A DNA stretch of 64,000 bases from Tetrahymena elliotti 4EA (lineage: Eukaryota; Ciliophora; Oligohymenophorea; Hymenostomatida; Tetrahymenidae): contig JH720338.1 of the NCBI GenBank assembly GCA_000231825.2, positions 297,339-361,338 of the forward strand. Reading direction: 5' to 3'. The translations under genes and the position numbers were made by a program. The notes beneath the pieces were generated by a model, which worked only from the letters and a program-made list of their open reading frames with translations, was not told the origin of the DNA and made no database searches. Below, in pieces: positions 1 through 38,965 of this stretch (positions are counted from its first letter, which is position 1; every line of letters starts with the position of its first letter).

Positions 1-3000
1 TCTTGATATTTGCGTACTCTAGATATGATATTAAAAGAATAAGGGGTCTCAATACATTTATTAGCTTCCTTCTGCAAATTTACATATATATTTTATTTTT
101 GCCCTCACTCAAGGCATCATTCATTATGGTTAATGATTACGAAAAGGTAGATACTTTTCTAGGCTGCATAAATATTATAATATCTTGGCTTATAGGTAAA
201 TTTTCTTAGAACTTCAATATTTAGTTAGGAAATATTCTCTAGTCTATGAAGCTTTACAGTTTTATTATTTAAGTTGAATTTAAAATCATATTTATTGATA
301 AAAAATAAGGATAATTATCAATAATTAAGTAAATTAAGCAAGTAAGTATATGTATGACCTTTAAGCAAATTAGCAAAAAAGAATCAAAGAATAAATATAA
401 ATTACATTTGAACTAAAAGATAATTTATCATAATACTAGGCAATATAATAGAATAGCTTCAAAATTACTCATTAAATTAATATTTGCAAAAAAGAAAAAC
501 AAGTGAAATGAATAAAGGAGTGCTATGATTATCTAAAATATCCGAATAAAAAATATAAGTACTTGTTTGATTAAATTAAGGTCAAAGAGTAATCTTAAAA
601 GTCTAAAAACTGTAAACTCCAATCCAAGATTAGATAAAATAATAGCCTAACTATCTAACTAATTAAATCTTTTTTTATTTTAATTTGATTTATTAAACAC
701 TGTTTACTTTTAAATAATAGGATTCTTTATAGTTTTTCATGATTATGACTATTCCTTCTTGGAGAGAGATAGGCTTTCAAAGAGATTTTCTTATTATGAT
801 GTTTGGCTCTTTATATAGCAAGGCATGCTCCCATTCTTCTTGCAATTCTCTAATGAAAAAGTTTTAGCTATATTCTCCTCTTTATATTCATTACAAAAAA
901 TAATAATATATTTTTTGGATTAGACCTACTTTAATGAAAGAATGTCTTGCTTCTACTCAATGATAATAACTTATTATTGTTCTACTTCTCTAATGTTTTT
1001 ATTATTTTTGGTTTCCCCAAACGATATAAATTTCACTCTGCTTATGCTCCTCTTTATACCTCTCTCTTTTCATCTTGGAAGAGTTATTTACAATTTCTTA
1101 CAAAAAAGTACATTTAAAAATTGCATAGGTAGATAAGATCTTACAGATTTACCCCCTTACAAATTAGACATATATATTCGTCTATTAAACAAAAACCTTA
1201 ACTTTTTCTATGAAGACTACATAAGAGATGGCCAGGGTTTTATTTTTGAAAACCTCTATGTAAATCACTAAATCAACTGCCAATAGGATGATTATAGATG
1301 TTTTTGTCATGATTTCCAAAGAGTAAATATATTTTTGATTTTTTTCTAATGAATTCATTCTATTCTGACTTGAATGTCATATCCACAAATTAAAAATATT
1401 CACTTAAAATATTTTTGAGAACTATTTTTTGAGATTTATCTATCAATTAGGTCTTTGTTTAGTTTATTTTTGATTTATTTTAAGAAAAATAGATTTTATA
1501 TTTATTTGTAAAAATAAATTTTGTTTAAAATTTTAAAAGTAAGATAATAAGCTGGAGTTTGAAGAATATATTGGTTAGGATTTTCGTAAAAAATATGTGA
1601 TGTTTTACATAATTAATTTATATGAATAATACCTTAAGGCAAACTAAAAAAGCTCATATGTTAATTCAGTCACTTTTGCATATATAAGCTTTCTTTTTGA
1701 AATTATGAAGATTTCTACCAAATCATTCAATATCATTTATATTAGTTAATAAAAGCTTATATCTGAAAATGCTAACTTGAGAGATTTATTTGTGTAATAA
1801 ATTTTAATGTACAGAATCAAGAAAGAGTTTTAGCAGTTTTTTTCTAATCCAACTTACCAAAATTAACGTCTATTTGTGATGGCACCAATTCTTTTTGATG
1901 AAAATATGCATTTTATGAAACTTTTACTGAAAGAGTAACTTGTAAATACAGGAATATTCTATGATTATTTATGCTCAAATTATGTTGATCTGTCAGTTGT
2001 AAATGAAAATGCTAGAATTTTATCTAAATATCTTAATGATCTAAAATTATAAATTGAATATCTTTATGATTTAAATCCAGAAAACTTAGAGCTATAGCAA
2101 TATTCAATTCACTTTAGCAATCTCCTCGAGTTTGAGAATTCTAAAGTAACCTAATTTATTAAAAAATCAAAAAATCTAAGTAAAAAAATGCTTCTTGCAC
2201 AAGACAGAAATATTTAAGTTTTTTCTAAAAATGCATGCATTGTTTATGCTTCACTCATTAAAAAAGACGGTTTGATCAAAAAAGTCTCAAACTCATTTTA
2301 AAGAATATACGGTATTGAAAATAAGCTGATTATTGGAAAGACTTTAAACTCTTTAATACCAAGAGGTCTCTACAACACTCATGATGATATCATTAGTAAT
2401 TTTAAAAATAAAGGTAGCATGAACATTATTAATAAAGGTAAATAAATCATTAGTTCTACAATTTATTTTAATTTGCCAATAATTAAATTTTTTAAAAACA
2501 TTTATTTGACATACATTTTCCATTTTCAATGAGGAAATATTATAAAAATTAACTGAAATGTGAATTATTAAAAGCAATTCAATAAAATTATAAATTTTTG
2601 GAGTAAATATTTAATTTAAAATAAATTGATTTAAAAGAAAATAGATACATTATAAATTTTAAAAGAATAAAATGAAAATAATTAATTTATTGATTGATTG
2701 AAATATTAAGCATCTCTTCATAATTTTTTTAATTTAATTCAGAATATTTTTTGAGTTTTCATCATGATTTTAATTTTATTGAATAGAATAAAGAATGGTC
2801 TTTGGGCTTAATGGAGAAGGATTTATCATTCCATTGATGATTAGATTGAAGCTAGAAAATATGAATGATGATTTTGGTGTTTGCTCTTTGCTCACAAGTG
2901 TTAATTAGGATAAAGAGTATTTATTTATTAGTGATGAAGGTTAAATTATGGATATTACAAAAAAATTGTACAATCTTATTTTTAAAGACCTCTCTTCTAT

Positions 3001-6000
3001 TAGTAAATTTATTAAAAATAAAAACTAAATTAACTTTTATTCAAAATAAATTATTTAAAAAGATGACTTAAGAAGATTTGATATTAAGCATTTAATTCCT
3101 CTTATTTGGGGTATTTAAGAAGTTAGCGAATATGATAAATAGTTTTATAGCGTATTGGTTGTTTCAAAGAAGCTTATGTTTATGAAAGAAAATAAGGTGC
3201 AAGATCTTAAATCTCAGCATAAAATGCAAGAAGTTGTTGACAATATTTCTTTGGATGATATTATTTATAGCATCAGTTTCAAGGTTTGTATAATTACTAC
3301 TTCAATTGGTCTCAATTTTAAGTTTGTTGAAATTGACAATTTTAAAAGAGAAGATAATTTAGCAAAAAGAAAAGGTCATATATCTCATTTAAAGACTTGT
3401 CTTAATGAAATTCTTAACAACAATGTAAATGCGCTTTTTAAGGAATTAACTGACGCTAATACTACCAAGCAAGGGAGTAATGAAAACCAAAATATTCTCA
3501 ATAATATAAATGATATTGGAGCTATGGATCAATCATAAGTTTTAAACTCTGAAATGGATAGCAGCTTTTATAGACACATGAGAAATAGTTATCCAAATAA
3601 GATTCTATCTTCTTCTAATATAAAAGATTATGGAGAGGAAAGTAGCAGGCTATCATAATAGTAGAAGCCAAGAAATTAAGCAAAATACCACAAAAACTTT
3701 GTCTATTTTTAGAATCCTTAACACAATATGATTAGTCCATATCTCAATAGTGATTTTGAAAGAGAGTAATACAATTCTTTATTTATTTATTCATTCATTC
3801 ATTAAATTGTATTTTTTTAATCTTAAAATAGTCACAAGATTATTGAAGAGAATAGTCCTTATGGTATTGACCCTAGGTCACCAGGACCAGTTTCTCCAAG
3901 ATCTTTTCTATAATATGCAGCTGGCTTAGAGTAAAATTCTCTTCCACCCACTACAGATAGATAAAGATTAGAGAATAATCCTCTTTTAGGAGATTTTGGT
4001 TAATTAGCTTCCAACAGAATTTAAAATAATCATCATAATCATATTCCTAGTTTATTAAGTTTATAATCACCTATGTCTTAAGCAGGTTTGCTAAGTAAAA
4101 AAAATGAAAATAATCATAGATAGATAGATTAAATGTTCTTTCCTAGTAGCCCCCTTCATAATAATCAGAATTAAAATCATGTTGATAATTACCTTATTAA
4201 CATTTAAAAGACCAAATCAAATGGCTCAACGCCAAGAAAAAGTAATAGTAACAAGCATTAAATGAACTAATAAAATCAGCCATAAGTTCTCAAAACAAAT
4301 AGCAGCGATAACAGTGAACCTAAAAACTTAGAATAAGGATAGATTGTGGTAAAGAGACATGAGTCAAGAAGTAAAACTGAAAAATAGAATCCTAAATCTT
4401 AGAAAAGAGTGGAGATAATAAAAATAGAGCATAATATTAATAAGGAATAGCATGAATTGATCAAAGAGATTGAATAAGATGATCTTGAGTCTCATTATTT
4501 GAGAATAGGAACAAATGACAATGATTATAAAGTTGTGAAAATTGAAAATCAGTACAATATAAATTAAATATAAAGTAATTTAGCTCTTCAACCTGAGTTT
4601 GAGAGAGATCCAATTAATCAAAATGAAATGATTACCTCTTATAAATAAATTCTTAAGATGAATCAGAATCAGCAATAAATCAAAGCTAAGCAAATTAATG
4701 CTGTTATTTAGAAGTAAAACACATCTAGATCTTTACTGAATTACAATCAAGAAATGAAGTTAAGTTTAGACAAAGAAGTCTTTAAGAAGGAGCAGTAGTA
4801 AAGCAATTAGCAAGAAGCACAAATAACAAAAGAGATAACTGATACTAATAATAATAACAACAACAACAACAACAATAATAATAATAATAATAACAATAAT
4901 AATACTAGCGAGAATAATGAGAGCTTTGAAGATGATCCTGCTAATTCAGATAAATTTAATATGGAATCAGAAGGCAAGAAAAAGAGGATTCATCATACTA
5001 TCACATAAAAACTAGAGAATAACAATGATTAGTCAAGTGTTCATTCGAGTAATAAAACATCTGAATAGTCAAGAAGAAAAGTTATTATCAGAAAAATCAA
5101 ATCAAATCATATTTCTGCAGGTTTAAAAGCAATGGTTTATATGGGAATTACTGCTTTCCTCATTTTTGCTGCTGTTTCCGTTGTTTTGTATGTTTAAAAT
5201 AATAAAAGCTACTCTCTTTACATTAGTAATTTCAATAAAGTTACACAAGCTTCTCTTCTATTTTTAGATATCGTAAGTGTAATAAAAGTTTTTTCTTATC
5301 TTGGAATTGTATAGAGTGAGCCCTATTATCAAGAAGAAAAAGTATATTCTATGCAAAGAATTTAATATTATTAAAATCAATTTAAAGATATATATTATTC
5401 ATTTGTGAACGATAATGATGTTACTTAACCTTATTACTAATATCTGCTGAATGAACCCTTTCAAATATCTCTTTTTCATGTTGAAGGGAGTTATGAGTAT
5501 CCTGTTATTCACAAAAATGAATCATAATTCACAGCTATGTCTTAGTTTATGTATATCATTAATCAAATTAAAGAAGTTGATTTTGACAATTCAAATATGC
5601 TCTTTCTCTGGTAAAATATGCATGAGTTTAAAGAAAATATGGGGAATATGCAACATCTTATTTAGTAGTAAGCTTAAGATTAATTCGATAATATTAGTTT
5701 GATGTAAATTATGATGCTAATCATTATACTTATTATTACTTGTACTCTCATTTTTACAGTTTTGCCTTTAAGTGTTTATAACATCATGAAATGTGAAGAA
5801 ATTCTTAAACTTTTTGGCTGTTTTCATCCAGAAAAACTCCAAAAGCTTATAGACATAATGGAAGAAACTGTTAATAAATTAGATCTGATTTCTTACTACA
5901 CTAAACTTCAAAGCTAAAAATATTACCTCAAGACTTTAGAACCTCAAAAAATTGATTTATCGGCTACAAAGAATAGGAGTGCAAATCTTTCAAAAAGCAA

Positions 6001-34273: not shown

Positions 34274-35233
34274 ATGGCAAACTACAGACCTGTCGAAATA
34301 GGCCTTTTAGTACTGTTATTAGCTTTCACTGCTACTAACATCGGTCTTGAAGGTAGATACTTAATGAAGAGATTACAAATTTGCAATTCTCTCAATTTAG
34401 ATAACTGCACTGAACAAAAAAATAGCTATCTCTTTGATGGATTCAGAAACTTGACAATGAAATTTTTTGCTGACTGCATTAACTTAGGTTTTATCATAGG
34501 TTCTTTCTTTGCAGTTATTTTTGTCAAAAAGCAATACGCTCCTAATGTTTCTCGTGTTTTGTTTGTTATAATCCTTGCTCTCACTTTAATGAGCTTAGGT
34601 ACTGGTGTCAGATCTATTGACTAAGAAGATGATTACAACAAAGATTCTTATGGTCCTAAATTAGAAAAATACTGCACTGCATAATCAGTATATGATTCAA
34701 ACTTATCTACCTACTAATCCAGCCTTGATTAATATAATAAGCTTACTAGTATCACTTAATTACAAGCTATTTAGCAATAATTTGCATCAGGTGATCCAAC
34801 TGAATATGTTAAAGCTAAAGGTTATTTAGACCTTGTTTCTAATTATCCTAAATTTACTGATGCAACTAAAGTTCAATCATCTTAAGGTGTTGTTGGTATA
34901 ATTGAAGGAGGGGCTAAACTTAAGACTGCAAAAGATTAATTAGATGCTGCTATCCCTCAAGTTAAACTAGCCAACAAAGCCTGCCCAGAAATAACAGACT
35001 TCAAAAATATATATGAAAGATATAGAAATTCAGTTGTTGCCTTAGTCATAATTAACTTTGTCTGGGCCTACACCTTAGTTCTACAATCATTTTTTAGATG
35101 GAATAATGAATAAGAAGAAAATAATAGAGTTAAACTTACTGGTACTGATCTCAGACTTTAAGACGCTAAATCAAATGATCTCTTAAAGAATCCTAACACA
35201 GATATTGAAATGAATGCTTAAAATGCTATGTGA
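34274..35233 (+). CDS. Four-TM tetraspanin-shaped membrane protein, second copy (319 aa)
   Basis: Single-exon gene from ATG 34274 (MANYRPVEIGLLVLLLAF) to TGA 35231-35233. TM helices lie at about residues 7-24, 62-83, 95-113 and 253-274. The first loop has paired Cys (CNSLNLDNC) and the block YLFDGFRNLTMKFFADC. The long TM3-TM4 loop here carries two Cys (EKYCTAQS and NKACPEI) that could pair, again as in tetraspanins, though no CCG motif exists. The C-terminus IEMNAQNAM nearly matches IEMNAQNVM of the gene at 29814, an unusually conserved tail that could be a sorting or binding signal. It faces the minus-strand B-box gene tail to tail. Function is unknown. Confidence 0.85.
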
Positions 35234-36078: not shown

Positions 36079-38965
36079 TCATTTTTGAGAAAATTTTATT
36101 TTTAAAGATAAATAAATACTCTTATTAATTGCCAATAATCTTTTATAATTTATTATTTTTAACATTTATTTTTCTTGGATTTTGTACTTTGTGAGTTATC
36201 TAAAAACTTACACTTACCTTAACCTTAAAAAACTTACACTTAACTTAACTTTAAAAAACAATGATAATATGTATATGAAAAAGATCTTATTGATTAAGAA
36301 AGTACAAAAATATAAAAACAAATATTACAAAATTAATATAATATCTTCGGTTTTTCTTTTAATTTGCCTTCTTGGTTATTTCTATTTTATTTAAAATATT
36401 TTGATCTATTTATTTGCTTGGTAGCACATTAAATTTTACCAGAATTGTGCATGCTCGATTTATTAGTTGATATGCAACCAATATTTATAAAGTTCTTGAG
36501 CCTAAAAATAAAATAAAATAATTAAATTTTCCATTTTTTTCTAGATAAAAATTATATTTTACTCCAAGATATTTTTCCTAAATGATTTTGGTATTTGATG
36601 AGATATTTAAGCAACTGAAACCACAAAAATTAGAATTTACGCTCTAGTTATTAAGATTATATTAATTAGAAAAAGAAATAATGAAAATTGTATCTTACGA
36701 ACTATTTTTAGTGAGAGTTATTGAATTGCCATAAGAAAAAGAAAGATATTTACATACTTTTGATTGGTTAATAATAAAAAATAAATAAGATATGTAAGTT
36801 AAAAGCTATAATAATTACTGCCTAGGTATTGATTGGATAAGATTTGTAAATAGATAGATAGATATCAATTAAAATTAAACTTACAATCTATATTTTAAAA
36901 ATAATGAATTTCTCAATCACTTTCTCAAATGAAAATCTATTTTACGTACTATTAAAAAGAATAAGTAAGAATTTAAATATCAAAATAATCAAACAATTAA
37001 TTTACTTCCTGTTTGGTGATAAATAATTTTTTATAGCTTCATTTAGATAAATTGTATTATAATTTACGTCCTTTTATTTTGAAAGAATATTGTAAGAAAT
37101 TAGACAGAATCAATTATGATAAATTACTCCCTTTTTTATAATAAAATTTATAAGATTATTCAGTAATAGCATATAAAAATTGAATTAAAATATATTACGA
37201 TCTGTTTTAGTGATAAAACCAATTTATTTAATAATTAATGCTTCATTCAAATCTAAAATTACATACTATTTTATTAAAAAGTACTATTTTAACACAAGAT
37301 TTATTTTTAATTTAAACATTATCTTACATACTATTTGATCAATCAAGATAGAATATTAATATAACCAACTAAACATCAATAAAACTAAATTTACTCCCTA
37401 TTCATTTTTTATTAGTAAATTAATCACTTAAAAAGTAGAATTTATATTAATTTTACTCTCTAGTATGAATATTAAAAGCAACAATTATTTATTAAGTCTT
37501 TCAAATGCAAAATTATTTTACTTGCTATATTATTTTTATTTTTGTTTATCTTACTAAATCATAATTATTTTTTATTATCTTACATACTATTTATCATTAA
37601 AATAACTCTTAAATAAGTATTCATTTATTTTAAAATAATTTATTATTACATACTAAGGTTGTTAAAATAATTATTAAATATGATTTGCAAAACCTGTGAT
37701 AATTAATTAATCTTTGTCATTTGATAGATGGGTTCATTTGTATTTTCAACAATCTCATCAACCAAGTTAATAAGAATTGATTCTCTGTAAAGTAAAATTA
37801 ATTACATCCTAATAAATCAATTGACATTAAATCTATTTTGAGCTTGCAATTAAAATCTTATTTACATACTATTTATTAAATTATTAATAAAATTTTTATT
37901 GAATATTTGAAAAACAAATTTACTTGCTAATTTAGTTGTTAGAATTCACATTAAATGGATGTAGTTTATTTAAATTTAATTTACGATCTTTTCATTATCA
38001 ATAAACATAACTTATTTATTACTTGCCAAATTTTAAATCAATCAATTTACTTTCTATTTATAAAAGAAAAATATTTTATTCTTTATAGAAACAAAAATTT
38101 TAGTTATTTACGATTCTCTCCTATTATTTTGGTGAATAATAATAATAATTTAACAACATTTCCTTATTTTTATTAATGTGAAATCTCGAAGAAACTTACA
38201 AAAGAATTAAACTATTTATTTATTTTAATAATCAGTTATTACTATTTAATATTCTTTATTTTAATTTACGGCGATGTTCAAATTGATCTGCTTGATTTGT
38301 TGGTTAACCTTTTCTATTGCTTGTGACTTGAGTGCATCTTTAGTCAACTGCTATTGTTGCTATGTCTACTCAGAAGATTGTAATAAAATTTATAATATAT
38401 TGTTCACTCTTGTTTGAGTCTATGCAACTTCACGGACAATATTTGTTTGCTTTAAATCCTTCAACACTAATGTGTTGTTCTCAAACTAAGCGAAACCTTT
38501 TAATTATTGTAAATTTTGAATAATTTATTGATAACTTGAAGAACTTTAAATTTGTAAATTCTGATGGATTGTTTTAGCTTATGCTGAAGGGTTGGAGACT
38601 TACTCTTTAACGGTTAGCAAATTTGTTTTTACTCCTTGTAATCTGCTAACAATATCATCAATAGTATTGACTGAGTCATTTATTTAGCTAACTAGATTTA
38701 AAATATCTTCACTTTTTCCTTCCTTTTCTATTTAATTTTGTCTATCAATCATTCCCTCAATCTAAAGAAGGAATTCATCTAGACTAATTTGCTTCACATT
38801 ATCCTTCTTTTCATGGATCTTTTAGTGATCATGGATATCTTTATGGCATTATTCGCAAATTAATGTCATAAACTTTTCATCACAAGATTGGCTGATGCAA
38901 ACATGCAATTGAGGAATCATACGTTTACATTGTAAACATTGCTTTCTGAAATCTCTGTCTCCCAT
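36079..38965 (-). CDS. B-box zinc-finger coiled-coil protein with a chain of single-codon exons
   Basis: Exon 1 (38965-38270, 232 codons) starts MGDRDFRKQC. It shows a B-box-like zinc site (C10, C13, C23, C28, C37, C40, H45, H47) and then a Gln-rich coiled coil (QAIEKVNQQIKQINLNIA), so it resembles a short TRIM-like protein. The exon ends exactly at a codon boundary before GTAAAT. The gene then appears to continue through exons of 12 nt (38211-38200, FNSF), 9 nt (38120-38112, ERI), twenty-two 3-nt exons, a 15-nt exon (36577-36563, EKYLG) and a last long exon from 36501 beginning AQELYKYWLHINQQIEHAQF. All are in phase 0. The last exon stays open to TGA 36081-36079 and includes a hydrophobic stretch; further splicing there is possible, so the C-terminus is uncertain. 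The predicted product is about 406 aa. Exon 1 is secure; the array rests on splice-site pattern only. Confidence 0.75.
36202..36257. repeat. Two-copy 27-bp tandem repeat with donor-like motifs
   Basis: Two adjacent imperfect copies of AAACTTACACTTA followed by a CTTAA-rich half. On the minus strand each copy contains GTAAG donor-like words. The repeat falls in the uncertain last part of the B-box gene and may mark its 3' UTR or a further splice site. Confidence 0.6.
36563..38211 (-). other. Micro-exon array: 22 consecutive 3-nt exons between 52-153-bp introns
   Basis: On the minus strand the word AG-NNN-GTAA recurs 22 times, about every 61 bp. Exons, by higher coordinate and codon: 38053 AAA, 37987 ATC, 37926 CAA, 37868 TAT, 37808 GAT, 37652 TAT, 37586 TAT, 37524 CAA, 37459 AGA, 37397 GGA, 37330 TAT, 37265 TAT, 37201 ATC, 37130 GGA, 37070 GAC, 37008 GAA, 36948 TAC, 36887 ATT, 36821 GCA, 36756 TAT, 36701 TTC, 36643 AGC. 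Exons of 12 and 9 nt precede and 15 nt follows. Introns are 52-68 bp except one of 153 bp (37805-37653). Acceptors look normal (AAATAG, TACTAG, AACAG, AAAAG). The intron interiors are not alike, so this is not a simple tandem repeat. Confidence 0.8.

Follow-up and report, generated by a model that had tools for sequence, protein, structure and literature searches.

Very short exons have been described both singly and in runs. Lone examples are the 1-nt exon of Arabidopsis APC11 (PMC4674806) and the 3-bp micro-exon of Drosophila homothorax (PMC7392893), and runs are found in the MEG genes of Schistosoma mansoni, with 10-20 short exons per gene of 6-81 bp (3-81 bp in the abstract), mostly of 15 bp, and introns of 0.1-5 kb (PMC10526429). 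In recursive splicing (on which see PMC6224609), exons of zero length lie at AG|GT ratchet points. The intron lengths of Tetrahymena have a mode of 56 bp and components with means of 55 and 64 bp (PMC5014332), and uniform tandem arrays of 90-bp LRR exons in this genus have been ascribed to exon shuffling including unequal crossing over (PMC6564038); the available part of the latter article contains none of five microexon-type terms. Lone ultra-short exons and runs of short exons are already known; new are runs of exactly one codon per exon, predicted here at many places in one genome. No paper on single-codon exon arrays turned up in a literature search that left most subscription papers outside its scope. 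The locus lies in a 64,000-nt stretch of contig JH720338.1 of Tetrahymena elliotti 4EA (the whole stretch analysed, hereafter the window), on the minus strand of which an earlier note had reported 22 consecutive three-nucleotide exons. Our computational analysis supports the prediction that these 22 triplets are single-codon exons of one complete gene.

The motif AG-NNN-GTAA was found 22 times in the minus-strand interval 38053-36641, with the full GTAA behind all 22 triplets. First-order Markov copies of the 1.6-kb region that holds the array contained AG-N3-GTA 1.0 times on average and at most 6 times in 2000 copies, against 22 observed. When the spacing in AG-Nk-GTAA was varied from k = 1 to k = 24, the array region gave 22 sites at k = 3 and 0-2 at each other k, and the remainder of the window showed no enrichment at k = 3. 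The Markov null and the spacing scan rule out a chance origin of the 22 sites. The 21 stretches that separate the triplets measured 52-68 nt, with one exception of 153 nt (37805-37653), and their spacing was variable and without fixed register. A comparison of the array region with the genome (the search skips very common words) returned, beyond the region itself, just two short matches of 41 and about 70 nt, and among 20 introns of the array compared pairwise no pair scored above shuffled + 5 standard deviations (SD). A repeat family and copied introns were therefore rejected as explanations of the window array. The count given in the earlier note, its excess over chance and the unrepeated nature of the intervening DNA were all reproduced; the ∼61-bp spacing it described holds for 20 of the 21 stretches and overlooks the one of 153 nt.

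In the gene model these triplets fall into a closed frame. The model has 28 exons (Table 1), of which 22 are 3 nt long and the first 26 are all multiples of 3, and its predicted product has 286 codons and ends at a TGA stop that the last intron splits as TG|A. All 27 introns are GT...AG, and 26 of them are 52-79 nt and one is 153 nt long, which places them among the short spliceosomal introns of Tetrahymena (GT...AG, near 55-64 bp). TAA and TAG are read through by kinase genes of the source genome, as in the ciliate code. The 22 joined codons read K I Q Y D Y Y Q R G Y Y I G D E Y I A Y F S. The 12-nt FNSF and 9-nt ERI exons that the earlier note had implied upstream are both present, and its central claim of 22 single-codon exons agrees with the closed 286-codon frame, the codon-like triplets, introns of Tetrahymena length and the appearance of the 12-nt exon in a T. 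thermophila model. We put a probability of roughly 85% on the reading that the triplets are single-codon exons joined by the spliceosome into one frame of 286 codons.

The make-up of the triplets is codon-like. Their log-likelihood, contrasting the codon usage of the window's genes with intron triplets, was +5.1, compared with 4.6 ± 3.2 for 22 random codons and -5.8 ± 4.4 for 22 intron triplets (P 0.0004). With a larger training set of 23,207 codons from 35 open reading frames, the array scored 0.193 per codon in frame 0 and 0.019 and -0.232 in the shifted frames, the references being 0.184 ± 0.118 for coding sequence and -0.187 for the intron null (P 0.0017 for frame 0).

The genome (90 Mb in 134 contigs) was searched for three AG-NNN-GTAA units with 40-70 nt between them, and the same pattern reversed served as the whole-genome control. 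This gave 572 matches (436 + 136) against 28 (20 + 8) for the reversed pattern; a stricter version, in which the first triplet is GAY or TAY, gave 37 matches on 15 contigs against 0. Twenty loci picked without regard to arrays (200 kb, 2,572 bases N) contained no chain of three 3-nt sites. Putative one-codon-per-exon arrays are many in the source genome and not confined to the window gene. The run of 22 putative exons that had been called extraordinary is present; it is not unique, as the genome holds many more arrays of this kind.

Nine arrays, selected through the three-unit pattern and including that of the window (C46, 22 sites), were read. They contain AG-N3-GTA 31 times in C1 (a contig added by the looser three-unit pattern, among the matches listed), 33 times in C16, 21 in C24, 15 in C58, 29 in C17 and 42 in C106. 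The longest arrays read are those of the tandem paralogs C3a and C3b (C3:1770001-1789000; L036, L037), with 64 and 63 sites over about 5.4 kb; their gene models also hold runs of 6-nt units. Together the nine arrays have 320 sense sites in 25.6 kb against 14 antisense, a frequency 19.5 times that of the 20 sampled loci, and the median distance between successive sites is 61 nt. Because the arrays were selected by this very motif, the 3-nt excess is partly a matter of choice; the other spacings were not selected. Markov copies of the arrays held about 15 sites for each k, and the observed numbers were 29 at k = 6, 14 at k = 9 and 3-7 at k = 2, 4, 5, 7, 8, 10, 11, 13 and 14, with 40 at k = 1, of which 28 lie within AG-AGN-GTA.

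Frame 0 scored highest in the arrays of the window, C1, C16 and C24, and their 107 triplets include no TGA. In C3a, C3b and C106, frame 0 contains 2, 3 and 1 TGA triplets, and the frame shifted by one base scored best, with 0.169, 0.179 and 0.135 per codon. TGA occurs 1, 1 and 0 times in this shift and 2, 3 and 2 times in shift 2; the sole shift-1 TGA of C3a and of C3b is found at the array's end and arises from TTG|AAG. Codons in shift 1 take two bases from one exon and the third from the next, about 60 nt apart, and that such a frame is the best one is what joined micro-exons predict, unlike isolated DNA motifs. Aligned in shift 1, C106 scored 53 with C3a and 69 with C3b, against 23-24 after shuffling; the alignments in frame 0 (39, 53) and shift 2 (38, 41) exceeded shuffling as well. 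A TGA stop split by an intron is predicted in the window gene (36440-36381) and, by frame, in the C3 pair.

C3a and C3b are 82% identical, and 60 of the 64 AG-N3-GTA sites of C3a share an alignment column with one of the 63 sites of C3b, two further C3a sites being offset copies in C3b; five unconstrained bases would be kept jointly in about 37%. What is held in this pair appears to be the putative splice sites and their 3-nt spacing. The mean BLOSUM score of the aligned pair was +0.70 in shift 1, +0.08 in shift 2 and -0.58 in frame 0, an order in the expected direction that did not exceed permutation (P 0.12). Among the six pairwise comparisons of the frame-0 arrays (window, C1, C16, C24), one was significant, that between the window and C24 (IGDE/IGEE, P 0.004).

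Two database models of related genes reach the micro-exons that adjoin the arrays. Exon 1 and FNSF of the window gene share 96% identity with T. thermophila TTHERM_00628400 across 236 aa; this model reads ...FNSF-VSFLEISHLIN, so that it includes the 12-nt exon and then runs into the next intron. The gene models follow a common plan, with FNSF, ERI and then K, I in the window, YTSY, EEI and then K, I in C1, and WEKY, EDI and then E, I in C16. The C16 gene is 82-83% identical to its T. thermophila and T. malaccensis orthologues. The prediction of WEKY and EDI in C16 preceded the examination of TTHERM_00189380, and the protein then matched: it reads ...NVSWR-WEKY-EDI- followed by VINYILK, using both micro-exons before it enters the next intron. 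The T. malaccensis orthologue of the C16 gene, ABPG74_014180, passes from NISWR directly to INIFQYIAGSTSKETQKKEIE, which matches the 63-nt exon of C16 placed by the model behind 26 single codons. It omits the 12-nt, the 9-nt and the 26 single-codon exons and yet stays in frame. This absence of the array may be a gene finder's failure or real skipping; the NISWR-INIFQYIAGSTSKETQKKEIE junction indicates that what precedes the array and what follows it form a single gene in one frame. As the models of both species break off or jump at arrays, other such database proteins may be truncated. An RNA-seq study of T. thermophila accepted a junction only when it was flanked by 8 bp or more on each side (PMC3274533) and could therefore not see 3-nt exons; in the available part of that article, "microexon" occurs once, as a mapping parameter.

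Several results weigh against the single-codon reading, among them the omission of the array from ABPG74_014180 and the automatic gene model considered below. No frame was clearly best, by per-codon score, in C17 and C58. In the nine arrays, counts were also low at k = 12, 15, 18 and 21 (6-11 sites) and on the antisense strand (5-14 per spacing, 5-12 for k other than 3), so the depletion of the other spacings is partly general. In the C3 pair the three triplet bases are conserved at.85,.75 and.77, no better than the introns, which implies either that the domain evolves fast or that its residues matter little, and the share of synonymous changes was 5 of 23 in the best frame (shift 1), 2 of 26 in frame 0 and 5 of 26 in shift 2 (permutation P 0.41). 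The remaining five of the six frame-0 array pairs did not align significantly. With the flanking exons added, the window and C16 gave P 0.028, in a best alignment that did not pair their 12- and 9-nt exons; the window and C1 gave P 0.08, and C16 and C1 gave P 0.22. A protein search with the spliced tail of the window gene returned no relative.

The 153-nt stretch bears on the reading phase. An automatic gene model, in two versions, chose a 104-nt exon at 37753-37650, which puts the later triplets in phase 2. Given this preference, the TAT at 37652 and the phase beyond the 153-nt intron are less sure, and on this point the claim of 22 single codons is weakened; the rest of it is supported. It is nevertheless unlikely that a 104-nt exon stands in place of one triplet and changes the phase of the 16 single-codon exons that follow. 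Its length is not a multiple of 3, unlike that of the surrounding short exons, and the penultimate exon is similar to the one that follows the C16 array when read in phase 0 (P 0.012) and not in phase 2 (P 0.64). With the 104-nt exon no stop is nearby, none occurring before the neighbouring open frame, whereas phase 0 closes at TGA. We retain phase 0 for the window array with moderate confidence.

Splicing of the array, which we infer, would proceed by intron definition, in which the GTAA...AG ends of each AT-rich intron of ∼60 nt would mark it out as one unit. Exon definition would be impossible on 3 nt, and introns of ∼60 nt are of a size that could be recognised as units. The complexes of small nuclear ribonucleoproteins are of a size that would hardly allow both splice sites to be occupied together when these are 3 nt apart. 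As the 3′ and 5′ sites around a triplet could hardly be bound simultaneously, neighbouring introns are likely to be removed in order, most simply from 5′ to 3′, so that the upstream exon would gain one codon per step. If every codon is included, the C-terminal part of the predicted protein would be encoded by the codons so joined. The units might instead be alternative exons, any number of which could be skipped in frame, one gene thereby giving many proteins that differ by single residues. The units and the adjacent short exons are all multiples of 3, so that every skip keeps the frame, and a model that omits the whole array is indeed in frame; the near-uniform strong sites, with GTAA at 22 of 22, favour regular inclusion and make frequent skipping quite unlikely, and the two readings differ only in efficiency.

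It is very unlikely that the array is a single 1.6-kb intron removed stepwise, with AG-NNN-GTAA as ratchet points, triplets that are transient or skipped, and a protein without them. Such removal would suit the C3 pair, which keeps splice sites and not triplet bases, and the T. malaccensis model ABPG74_014180, which skips the array in frame. Recursive sites, however, need neither an exact 3-nt spacing nor codon-like triplets; moreover, the arrays also contain 6- and 9-nt units, the T. thermophila database models include the first micro-exons, and in C3 and C106 the top-scoring frames run across the sites and contain hardly any TGA. Isolated DNA motifs do not predict that last result either, and a non-splicing DNA repeat (a binding site, a DNA-elimination signal or a decayed satellite) that happens to read AG-N3-GTAA is barely credible, even though the spacing is regular, the DNA AT-rich and the copies in C106 truly tandem. 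The spacing varies over 52-68 nt without fixed register, the region has no other long match in the genome, the motif is strand-specific in the nine arrays (320 sense, 14 antisense), and in three genes the arrays stand in frame behind coding exons. The coordinates of the single-codon exons and of the other predicted features of the gene are given in Table 1.

Table 1. Predicted features of the window gene, in the order of transcription (positions in the window).
Feature	Position	Strand	Basis
Exon 1, 696 nt, 232 codons, phase-0 end	38270..38965	-	open frame in ciliate code
12-nt exon FNSF	38200..38211	-	AG + 12 nt + GTAAGT; in database T. thermophila model
9-nt exon ERI	38112..38120	-	splice letters; same 12 + 9 plan in C1 and C16 genes
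3-nt exon AAA (K)	38051..38053	-	AG-NNN-GTAA
3-nt exon ATC (I)	37985..37987	-	AG-NNN-GTAA
3-nt exon CAA (Q)	37924..37926	-	AG-NNN-GTAA
3-nt exon TAT (Y)	37866..37868	-	AG-NNN-GTAA
3-nt exon GAT (D)	37806..37808	-	AG-NNN-GTAA
153-nt intron, sole long one; may conceal a further exon	37653..37805	-	gene model; automatic model
3-nt exon TAT (Y), alternatively end of a longer exon	37650..37652	-	AG-NNN-GTAA; automatic model differs
3-nt exon TAT (Y)	37584..37586	-	AG-NNN-GTAA
3-nt exon CAA (Q)	37522..37524	-	AG-NNN-GTAA
3-nt exon AGA (R)	37457..37459	-	AG-NNN-GTAA
3-nt exon GGA (G)	37395..37397	-	AG-NNN-GTAA
3-nt exon TAT (Y)	37328..37330	-	AG-NNN-GTAA
3-nt exon TAT (Y)	37263..37265	-	AG-NNN-GTAA
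3-nt exon ATC (I)	37199..37201	-	AG-NNN-GTAA
3-nt exon GGA (G)	37128..37130	-	AG-NNN-GTAA
3-nt exon GAC (D)	37068..37070	-	AG-NNN-GTAA
3-nt exon GAA (E)	37006..37008	-	AG-NNN-GTAA
3-nt exon TAC (Y)	36946..36948	-	AG-NNN-GTAA
3-nt exon ATT (I)	36885..36887	-	AG-NNN-GTAA
3-nt exon GCA (A)	36819..36821	-	AG-NNN-GTAA
3-nt exon TAT (Y)	36754..36756	-	AG-NNN-GTAA
3-nt exon TTC (F)	36699..36701	-	AG-NNN-GTAA
3-nt exon AGC (S)	36641..36643	-	AG-NNN-GTAA
15-nt exon EKYLG	36563..36577	-	gene model
Penultimate exon, 62 nt, AQELYKYWLHINQQIEHAQF + TG of stop	36440..36501	-	gene model; resembles exon behind C16 array (P 0.012)
Last intron, 58 nt, splits TGA as TG|A; final A directly after	36382..36439	-	gene model

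The first part of the predicted protein contains Cys and His residues and looks coiled-coil-like by eye. No Pfam family scored over the cut-off for the window protein, its tail or three orthologous database proteins, and a B-box/TRIM identity, considered because of the Cys/His pattern, was rejected as neither the window protein nor the orthologues had a Pfam B-box match. Searched against the genome, the spliced tail matched solely its own last exons, and exon 1 had one weak relative of 25% identity (C16:1042003-1042449). A 319-codon open frame with a high G+C content (0.32) adjoins the gene on the plus strand (34274-35233).

The arrays likely grew by tandem duplication of a unit of one 3-nt exon and its intron, and later diverged. 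We infer this origin from tandem copies that are still visible in some other arrays, though not in that of the window, where neighbouring introns are not alike. In C106 (L039, TRF rows 2714-3038), a ∼90-nt unit that comprises an intron and its single-codon exon is repeated in tandem across four neighbouring introns, with 83-86% matches. Four intron pairs in C106 and four in C17 exceeded shuffled + 5 SD, and none did so in the window, C1, C16, C24, C58, C3a or C3b. A C17 intron used as query gave 18 matches, itself included, on C17, C44, C80 and C122, of which five run end to end and six more miss only the first six bases; in C44, two neighbouring pairs of copies lie exactly 3 nt apart (481936/481940 and 482317/482321). 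Homologues of this intron are located at C44:481788-482393, C122:34194-34484 and C80:288582-288983. Such unit duplication would be akin to the origin put forward for the 90-bp LRR exons of Tetrahymena (PMC6564038), and duplicated exon-plus-intron units would offer a visible route to an exploding number of introns. Whether these genes further form a genome-wide class, in which a domain written one codon per exon has grown by duplication and is edited residue by residue through splicing into a huge set of variants, is doubtful; as skipping of a unit preserves the frame, splicing could in principle yield very many variants from one gene.

Should RNA confirm the predicted splicing, the window gene would stand at the extreme among split genes, and splicing would be shown to stay accurate where each codon has an exon to itself, through series of 20 to about 60 such exons. 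The arrays would then allow intron definition, the order of splicing and the minimal exon that a spliceosome needs to be tested cleanly in a natural setting. The annotations of a well-used model genus would also be missing parts of such genes, since two T. thermophila models go no further than the first micro-exons and the RNA-seq rule demanded at least 8 bp (PMC3274533).

Set beside the known systems, the arrays share some traits with each. Like the MEGs, they are runs of very short exons, mostly multiples of three, that are hard for gene finders and occur in a family of genes; unlike the MEGs, whose exons are mostly of ∼15 bp and whose introns are of 0.1-5 kb, they consist of consecutive 3-nt exons in a ciliate, with introns of ∼60 nt (52-79 nt and one of 153 nt in the window gene) (PMC10526429). 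APC11 and homothorax demonstrate that exons of 1-3 nt can be spliced, as is proposed here (PMC4674806; PMC7392893); those exons stand isolated between normal ones, whereas the window gene has 22 consecutively and the C3 genes have about 60 sites. Recursive splicing likewise places 3′ and 5′ splice sites back to back inside a long stretch, with 0 nt between them, in contrast to the 3 codon-like nt found at 22 of 22 sites between introns of ∼60 nt in the window. The LRR arrays belong to the same genus and also repeat a uniform exon length and intron phase in tandem (PMC6564038); their exons are of 90 bp with introns in phase 2, while those predicted here are of 3 bp, in phase 0 in the window, C1, C16 and C24 and probably in phase 1 in C3 and C106, and no LRR content was noticed in the present genes. 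With the ordinary short introns of Tetrahymena (PMC5014332) the introns of the array share the GT...AG ends and the length near 55-64 bp, and they differ in their density of one intron per codon over the array.

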